A DNA stretch of 64,000 nucleotides from Gemmatimonadota bacterium (GTDB lineage: Bacteria; JBHIER01; G020348925): assembly GCA_020348925.1 (NCBI GenBank), contig CP070758.1, forward strand, positions 4,581,528 to 4,645,527, read 5' to 3'. This document shows, in pieces, positions 58,644 to 64,000 of the stretch. Position 1 is the stretch's first letter, and the number at the start of each line of letters is the position of its first letter. A program made the position numbers and the translations under genes. The notes beneath the pieces were generated by a model that searched no databases, was not told the DNA's origin, and worked only from the letters and a program-made list of their open reading frames with translations.

Positions 58644-58794
58644 CAAGGGTCAACCCTTCAAAATTAAATCTTTCTCTGCACTCTTCATAGGAATATTCTG
58701 TAGAAACTCAAAATCAAAGGGATGATTCTTTCTCCCCTATTACAAGGAGAATTCCCTTATTTTCAAAATTTATATTTAAGCCCCGCCCCTCGTG
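58644..58794. repeat. MITE-like element, copy D
   Basis: Starts AAGGGTCAACCCTTCAAAAT and ends 'TTTAAGCCCC-GCCCCTCG'. The interior blocks 'TATTCTGTAGAAACTCAAAA' and 'CTCCCCTATTAC' recur in the copy at 59177-59358. The terminal inverted repeats are degraded here, so this copy is probably older. Confidence 0.65.
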
Positions 58795-59176
58795 GATATA
58801 TTCTTCGTATCAAGAAACTAAAAGAAAATATACTGTCGTGATGTTCTGATTTTTAATGCCCTGAAACGTGAGCTGCTGGATCGTCCAGCGAGCGGAGTGT
58901 CCGTTTTTTCCGTTGTTTGAGCCTGATCGGAGTGAGGGCGAGTTTGGAAAAAACAGCGAAGCGAGCTGTTGACAATCCCGGCGAACGTTTATTGGGCTGC
59001 TCTTTCTTTTGCTTCGTTTTCTTTGAGCAAGCAAAGAAAACGAAGATATTAAGTAAGAGAACTGTCATTACCCAACGTGATCGGGTAATCTAGAAATACA
59101 ATTTTTATAAAATCCCTTTAATTTTCTGGATCCTCCGGTCAAGCCGGAGGATGACAAAAGAGTATATTATGGTCTA
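58795..59176. repeat. Hairpin-rich spacer between two MITE-like copies
   Basis: Contains GCTGGA-TCG-TCCAGC near 58872, a perfect 14-bp stem CTTCGTTTTCTTTG (59012-59025) with CAAAGAAAACGAAG (59032-59045) around loop AGCAAG, and ATCCTCCGG (59130-59138) with CCGGAGGAT (59144-59152). The region has no gene. It looks like a stack of palindromic repeats of different families. Confidence 0.6.
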
Positions 59177-62619: not shown

Positions 62620-62682
62620 GTTCAACTTTGTCTATTGTGTCGACGTTTGGTTCCAGCGTCGGTATGCAGCATTTTGTTAGGT
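62620..62682 (-). other. attC-like integron recombination site
   Basis: On the minus strand it starts with ACCTAAC (R'', consensus RYYYAAC) immediately after the TAG stop of the SnoaL-like gene and ends with GTTGAAC (R', consensus GTTRRRY) 63 bp later. The interior begins 'AAAATGCTGCATACCGACGC' and can fold through CGACG/CGTCG. Length, ends and placement after a stop codon fit an attC (59-base element). Confidence 0.65.
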
Positions 62683-63102
62683 CTATTCCCCCCATGCCCT
62701 TTTTAATTCATCATGGTCGAAATAGTAATCTCGCACCCTAACAGCTTTAGTCTTTTCTATTTCGATTATTGTTACACCGCCATTGCGAAAACTATACCCG
62801 CTCTTATTTTCTCCTTCAATATCCCATTCAGCCGAAACAACATTTGATCCGGTTAAGTCGAATATTCTTTCAACGCAAATATTTTTCAAGGAAATCTAAT
62901 ATTGTGTGAAATTTGCCAATAAATTGTCGAACCATTTCTTTATATCTTTTTTCCCTTTTATTTCCCCACTAACAGTTAGCTTTCCCGGATAAGTAAAAGA
63001 GGCATCTTCAGCCCACGTTGAGATAAATGATAGAATGTCTCGTTCGTTTAGTGACTTGAAAGCTGATTTCGTCTTATTTTTGGCAATTGTTGATCCGATC
63101 AT
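62683..63102 (-). pseudogene. SnoaL/NTF2-like cassette gene with internal stop
   Basis: One frame of 139 codons: 'FKSLNERDILSFISTWAEDA', 'SFTYPGKLTVSGEIKGKKDI' and 'KKWFDNLLANFTQY', then TAG at 62896-62898, then 'ISLKNICVERIFDLTG', 'SGYSFRNGGVTIIEIEKTKA' and 'VRDYYFDHDELKRAWGE'. Together this is a complete SnoaL-like domain interrupted by a single nonsense codon. AGGGAGG stands 6 nt before the ATG. It lies between two attC-like sites and is much more AT-rich than the esterase next to it, as expected for a captured cassette. Confidence 0.75.
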
Positions 63103-63140
63103 TGTGTTGCCTCCCTAAAAGTCTAGATTCGATTTCATAG

Positions 63141-63200
63141 GCCCAACGCTCAGCATCAGCGGGAGCATGCAGTGGTGTTCGTTGAATGCTGTTGCTAGGC
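63141..63200 (-). other. attC-like integron recombination site
   Basis: Minus strand: GCCTAGC (63200-63194, one base off RYYYAAC), L'' CAGCATTCAACG, a short centre, L' CGCTGATGCTG, and R' GTTGGGC (63147-63141), a match to GTTRRRY. The L arms pair with an unpaired T, the kind of extrahelical base integron integrases use. It lies 65 nt after the esterase stop and about 40 nt before the next ATG. Confidence 0.65.
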
Positions 63201-63265: not shown

Positions 63266-64000
63266 CTACTTCGTTACATCCTTCAACCGTTCCCTCATAG
63301 GATTGAGCCACTCCGAATCGGGCAATATCCTTGTTTGCTCGAGCGCCACCGCCTTCTGAAAGCAATCGCGAGCCTTGTTCAAGTCATTCGACAACTGGTA
63401 CGTCCGGCCGTGGAAGTACCAGGCAATGGCGGACCGGGGATAAGTGGTCGTCCACTCCGCGGTAATGAAGAGAATCTCCCCCGGATCGTGTGAGTTGAAC
63501 CATCCACGCACTAGCGCCGCGTAAACGTCGTCGGGCACACTGACGGTATAGCCATAGTCAGCCGACACGCTCGCGTAGTGCTTCTTGACCGCGGCGAGCC
63601 CCTCATTCAGCTTGTTTTGCGGCACGGCAAAGTCGGGGAAGGCGGCTTGCAGGCCTTCGTAGAGCGCCTTGTAGGGCGTATAGTAGTGGGACACGCCCGG
63701 AATCTCGACGTACGCCCAGCCCTTCGCCTTTTTCTCTTCAAGTAACGGCACAATGCCGCCCTTGACCGAGTTCCCGATGCTGCCTCCCTCGAGCGCCCCC
63801 TGCGTGATCACCAGTCTTTGCCGGAACTCAGCGCCGTCGGGAATGCGATCCTGAGCCCAACCCAAGGGCTCCTGGTTGTTCCACCAGAGGCTGGGGCTGA
63901 TGGCGATGTAAGCCGCAAAGAGCTCGGGCTTCTCCAAGAACGTGTAAAACGTGAAAAGCCCACCCAGCGACCAGCCCGCGAGGATGCTTCCGCTCGTGCG
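63266..64000 (-). CDS. Esterase D/IroE-like alpha/beta hydrolase with TPR-like tail, 5' end cut
   Basis: The frame is open to the right window edge; the visible 245 codons begin 'RTSGSILAGWSLGGLFTFY', which contains the nucleophile elbow GWSLG. Then come 'AAYIAISPSLWWNN', 'LVITQGALEGGS' and the catalytic His region 'IPGVSHYYTPYKALYEGL', as in the putative esterase (IroE/Fes/YbbA) family. The last 80 residues are helical and TPR-like ('AWYFHGRTYQLSNDLNKARD'). Probably exported or periplasmic, cleaving esters of siderophores, acyl groups or glycans. Markedly GC-rich compared with all genes from 55 to 63 kb, suggesting separate origin. Confidence 0.8.
   Translation of the reverse strand, partial: RTSGSILAGWSLGGLFTFYTFLEKPELFAAYIAISPSLWWNNQEPLGWAQDRIPDGAEFRQRLVITQGALEGGSIGNSVKGGIVPLLEEKKAKGWAYVEIPGVSHYYTPYKALYEGLQAAFPDFAVPQNKLNEGLAAVKKHYASVSADYGYTVSVPDDVYAALVRGWFNSHDPGEILFITAEWTTTYPRSAIAWYFHGRTYQLSNDLNKARDCFQKAVALEQTRILPDSEWLNPMRERLKDVTK

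Follow-up and report, generated by a model that had tools for sequence, protein, structure and literature searches.

The 521-bp unit described here is probably a decaying gene cassette of a dying integron system, the platforms of which lie elsewhere in the same genome with collapsed integron integrase (intI) genes. The window, that is, the whole stretch of 64,000 nucleotides that was analysed, covers positions 4581528-4645527 of a single 5.04 Mb scaffold, and its last base directly abuts a scaffold gap of 100 N. The reading is supported by attC-like sites of graded quality, a broken open reading frame (ORF), collapsed copies of intI and a putative attI that the platforms share. In cassette insertion, the integron integrase acts on attC as a folded bottom strand, which it recombines with attI or a further attC. 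The following features were located in the window:

62620-62682, minus strand: left attC remnant, with R'' ACCTAAC at 62676-62682 and R' GTTGAAC at 62620-62626; proposed from its boxes, 5' arm and stop-codon position
62626-63146, minus strand: candidate gene cassette of 521 bp between the two crossovers; from the positions of the R' boxes
62683-63102, minus strand: SnoaL_2 gene of 139 codons, broken by an in-frame TAG; from ORFs and a Pfam match
63110-63116, minus strand: Shine-Dalgarno-like AGGGAGG, 7 nt ahead of the ATG; from reading of the sequence
63141-63200, minus strand: credible but mutated right attC, with R'' GCCTAGC at 63194-63200 and R' GTTGGGC at 63141-63147; from covariance models and arm matrices
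63266-64000, minus strand: 3' part of a GC-rich esterase and TPR gene, truncated at the scaffold gap; from sequence reading and profile matches

Read along the minus strand, the order is esterase/TPR gene, right site (63200-63141), a leader with AGGGAGG, SnoaL_2 gene and left site (62682-62620). The sequence-only reading had described a unit of about 520 bp with a ribosome site and a small SnoaL-like ORF, and both the distance measured between the R' crossovers and the AGGGAGG upstream of the ATG agree with it. The unit has a GC content of 38%. The SnoaL assignment also stood, with a SnoaL_2 Pfam match of 35.3 bits when the gene is translated through the TAG, but it had been overlooked that the ORF, which runs from the ATG at 63102 to a TAG stop at 62685-62683, is split into two ORFs of 68 aa each by an in-frame TAG at 62896-62898. 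This codon aligns with a Gln of an intact paralogue at 178 kb (41% identity), which would fit a nonsense change in a Gln codon as well as an error in the consensus. As sequenced, the SnoaL gene is a pseudogene. Both SnoaL paralogues, the one at 178 kb and another at 2.83 Mb, are intact and lack attC. The esterase gene has its stop at 63266, only 65 bp ahead of the right attC, and is therefore possibly the preceding cassette. The sharp change in base composition that had been claimed was confirmed, with 36% GC in the SnoaL gene versus 59% in the esterase gene.

A dispersed repeat or MITE was also considered for a 616-bp unit and ruled out by its single occurrence in the genome. A separate dispersed repeat of ∼190 nt lies in the window at 58842-59045 on the minus strand (within 58780-59120), and has 34 further genome matches of 72-87% identity besides the exact self-match. 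Several of these matches form clusters, at 1.025, 1.034-1.047 and 4.92-4.95 Mb, and one cluster adjoins the integron platform at 1.02 Mb. An Rfam search of the window gave no match.

Two covariance models were employed to score attC sites. Sites were mined from integron loci located with IntI1, and 21 of them were aligned with R and L helices assigned; 89.8% of the helix cells in this alignment are paired, compared with 34-44% when it is slid by one column, a strong covariation. The first model, R1, was built from these 21 real sites, and in a control on 15 integron loci it identified 33 attC sites with E < 0.01, none of them on the wrong strand. The second model, R2, was built from 56 sites, of which five come from this genome and none is either of the window sites. 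The arms were scored separately by simple position matrices against 267,650 background positions. A plain search for the pattern RYYYAAC...GCGTTRRRY performed at chance level, with 11 matches versus 9 in the reversed control.

Using these models, the right site emerged as a credible but mutated attC. R1 gives it 23.4 bits, with E 3e-4 for 6 kb. Its R2 score is 22.6 bits (E 0.0065 for the whole window and 0.5 for the genome of 5.04 Mb), sixth among the eight genome-wide matches and just behind five sites of 36-51 bits. In the reversed orientation the score falls to 9.9-10.8 bits. The crossover lies between 63147 and 63146, and 14 of the 16 model pairs are kept. Against RYYYAAC...GTTRRRY, R' GTTGGGC is exact and R'' GCCTAGC carries a single mismatch, the one base by which the right-hand copy had been said to be off. 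No background position among the 267,650 scores as high as its 3' arm, while its 5' arm, at rank 784, is mediocre. When folded as single-stranded DNA, the site is no better than shuffles (z +0.37) and no stable bottom-strand hairpin was found; some other attCs of this genome fold weakly as well.

The left site is at best an attC remnant with inferred boundaries. Both of its boxes are exact, and it directly adjoins the TAG stop of the SnoaL gene, as the sequence-only reading had stated. It resembles attC in its 5' arm, which ranks 23 among the 267,650 positions, while its 3' arm ranks 9,422 and L' is not complementary to L''; each window site thus has one good half, the 3' arm in the right one and the 5' arm in the left one. 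The covariance-model check that had been proposed for both sites succeeded for the right site and failed for the left, which with 6.7 bits from R1 (E 1.9 in 6 kb) would pass no sensible cut-off. Among 1,442 ORFs of 100 or more codons, 3 have exact R''...R' boxes directly at the stop, with a best 5'-arm score of -4.8 versus 8.6 for the left site; the comparison was made after the motif had been noticed and is supportive, not decisive. The two sites had been presented as imperfect palindromes in the same orientation. Their positions and minus-strand orientation hold, but the word palindrome is generous, the left site being the worse: folding of the bottom strand, which had been suggested as a check, gave neither site a structure better than shuffled DNA.

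Elsewhere in the genome, R2 identified clear attC sites at 107,989 (51.1 bits), 1,429,803 (48.4), 1,023,534 (44.3), 1,020,731 (38.7), 1,428,847 (35.9) and ∼1,427,731 (28.0), together with weaker attC-like sites at 2,444,796 (20.9) and 850,288 (18.9). The attCs at 1.02 and 1.43 Mb have DNA fold z values of -2.5 to -4.7. The site at 850 kb overlaps the stop of an alcohol dehydrogenase gene, and a paralogous alcohol dehydrogenase gene bears the best attC of the genome, at 108 kb, in the same place; sites of ∼19-23 bits in this genome can therefore be real. These zinc-dependent alcohol dehydrogenase paralogues (L119:5255-7360 and L116:7228-8056, in locus labels) include two that end in attC at the stop, and no attC was detected at a tandem third copy. 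The genes beside attCs encode alcohol dehydrogenase, a beta-lactamase-fold protein, a cupin, a ParE/Phd toxin-antitoxin, a deaminase, a GNAT protein, an Mrr-type nuclease, a trypsin-like protein and a flavodoxin/ferredoxin protein, and this cargo is typical of cassettes. The ParE/Phd-type pair (L116:10227-10833) has a weak attC-like site of 13.3 bits at 5 nt past its stop, in which it resembles stabilised cassette arrays.

The genome-wide search for intI that had been proposed revealed two degraded integron platforms, at 1.02 and 1.43 Mb, with a shared putative attI, and no intact intI in the assembled sequence. Both keep the intI upstream region, the start and the C-terminus, and have lost the catalytic middle:

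L118:8372-8900: degraded intI platform
L117:12800-12480, minus strand: degraded intI platform

At 1.426 Mb, an ORF starts like IntI (NCBIfam integron integrase, E 3e-6, with no Xer family listed; 30 aa align with an environmental IntI at 57% identity), and the IntI C-terminus THVLNRGGKGVKSPMDGL follows ∼100 nt on in a different frame. The platform at 1.0247 Mb has this upstream region and start codon too, and MIYTHVLNRGGKSIRSPVVNL comes ∼12 codons later. The upstream region and start common to the platforms span 79 nt at 72% identity. Immediately ahead of the first cassette, a 40-nt stretch with CATTGTTGGGCAAC, 85% identical between the platforms, forms the putative attI, which in both carries GTTGGGC between the intI remnant and the first cassette. 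The attI-like and intI-upstream motifs each occur exactly twice in the genome, the upstream motif having one two-mismatch match elsewhere, and the attI-like sequence was absent from the viral collection that was searched. Remnant, putative attI and cassettes follow one reading direction at both platforms. Nothing in the assembled sequence, which excludes the gaps, exceeds the TIGR02249 cut-off for an intact intI, and four integron-bearing genomes used as positive controls gave 465-508 bits. Two tyrosine recombinases of 328 and 301 aa match TIGR02249 weakly and look like ordinary XerC/XerD rather than IntI; the 328-aa protein is encoded downstream of a topoisomerase-like ORF.

The sequence-only reading had also remarked that no integrase was in view. 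None is present in the window, but this local absence is uninformative. Cassettes in this array would read on the minus strand, so that its upstream side, where attI and intI would lie, faces the scaffold gap ∼800 bp away and runs into it. Beyond the gap lie the start of tuf and then fusA, rpsG, rpsL, rpoC and rpoB. An array without integrase and an array cut by the gap look alike locally and cannot be separated. Among five attC-bearing loci examined, a non-random sample, four have a scaffold gap no more than ∼1 kb away, compared with 13% of random positions (577 kb sampled); examples of such 100-N gaps, in locus labels, are:

L008:628-727: 100-N scaffold gap near an attC locus
L118:11956-12055: 100-N scaffold gap near an attC locus

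Variable cassette content may break the assembly near attC loci. An intact intI hidden in a gap is possible. The collapsed platforms might be non-autonomous integrons at which cassettes can still dock when an intact IntI is supplied in trans, perhaps from a gap-hidden integron, a reading that we consider very improbable.

In the proposed history of the window unit, an integron integrase would have inserted the SnoaL gene with its attC in the minus-strand direction, behind the esterase gene or cassette; the unit is arranged as such an event would leave it. After the catalytic middle of intI was lost, nothing in the assembled genome would recombine attC sites, and with intI destroyed the attC structure would no longer be maintained. 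Decay since then would have cost the right attC its L'' pairing and the left attC its 3' arm, and would have given the ORF its nonsense codon. Since intI is destroyed, one mutated attC, one half-lost attC and a nonsense codon are what neglect would be expected to leave. We infer both that IntI once made the insertion and that decay followed because recombination was lost.

Against the cassette reading stand the below-threshold left site, the failure of either window site to fold beyond shuffles and the genome-wide E of the right site. The low score of the left site and its unpaired arms would suit a reading in which the right site alone is a true attC, marking the end of an esterase cassette, and the left site is a chance match behind an ordinary chromosomal SnoaL gene, as the two intact paralogues without attC also suggest. 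The left boxes, however, are exact at the stop and have a 5'-arm score well above that of the three comparable stops, and the unit has the usual size and layout of a cassette; this explanation is unlikely. A reading of the two palindromes as chance inverted repeats, or as terminators, with no tie to integrons agrees with their weak folding and with the genome-wide E of ∼0.5 for the better one. It is hard to reconcile with the orientation-specific covariance-model score, the position at gene ends and the independent integron remains in the same genome, and is very improbable.

The gap at the window end, and the rise from 36% to 59% GC within a few hundred bp, raise the question of whether the last ∼0.9 kb, with the right attC and the esterase gene, comes from another organism, in which case the two sites never flanked one cassette. 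The contig end could be chimeric, just as the in-frame TAG could be a consensus error, and attC loci in this scaffold lie close to gaps more often than random positions do. Cassettes normally vary in GC, however, with 37-58% in the other attC-linked genes of this genome, and downstream of the right attC the SnoaL gene has a normal leader with a Shine-Dalgarno sequence, which leaves a chimera quite improbable. Overall, the sequence-only observation is confirmed in part. Its integron reading is supported in substance, by the right site and the other integron remains of the genome, and is qualified by the failure of the left site in the covariance model, by the broken gene and by the gap, which locally could equally explain the apparent edge of an array lacking an integrase.

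A cluster of attC sites lacking an integron integrase is known as a CALIN (IntegronFinder 2.0, PMC9024848). Like a CALIN, the window unit has an attC-flanked promoterless gene, no integrase nearby and small accessory cargo; unlike one, it does not strictly fit the two-site definition, as one of its two sites passes the covariance model, and the array is cut by the gap. Three origins have been proposed for CALINs: off-target insertion by an IntI located elsewhere, loss of intI, and rearrangement (PMC8618304); for the window unit, the data favour none of them over the others. In class 1 integrons, integrases are readily inactivated, and such inactivation restores fitness (PMC3510236). The loci at 1.02 and 1.43 Mb resemble a sedentary chromosomal integron with inactivated intI in having intI remnants, an attI-like site and attC cassettes, and differ in that one genome has two platforms, with internal intI deletions that keep both gene ends. 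In the atypical integrons of Treponema, intI is oriented as the cassettes are (PMC3607928). The platforms here likewise have intI (as a remnant), attI (putative) and cassettes in one direction, yet they belong to another lineage and intI is dead in both copies.

The window unit itself is an ordinary, known kind of thing; of greater interest are the two platforms, both with an internal deletion in intI and with a putative attI that is conserved between them. The unit also gives a warning: a scaffold gap that cuts an array can make it look integrase-free. Together, the platforms, putative attI, attCs and cassettes document a degraded integron system in a phylum-level lineage, and the series from intact to eroded attC within one genome shows cassette decay after integrase loss.
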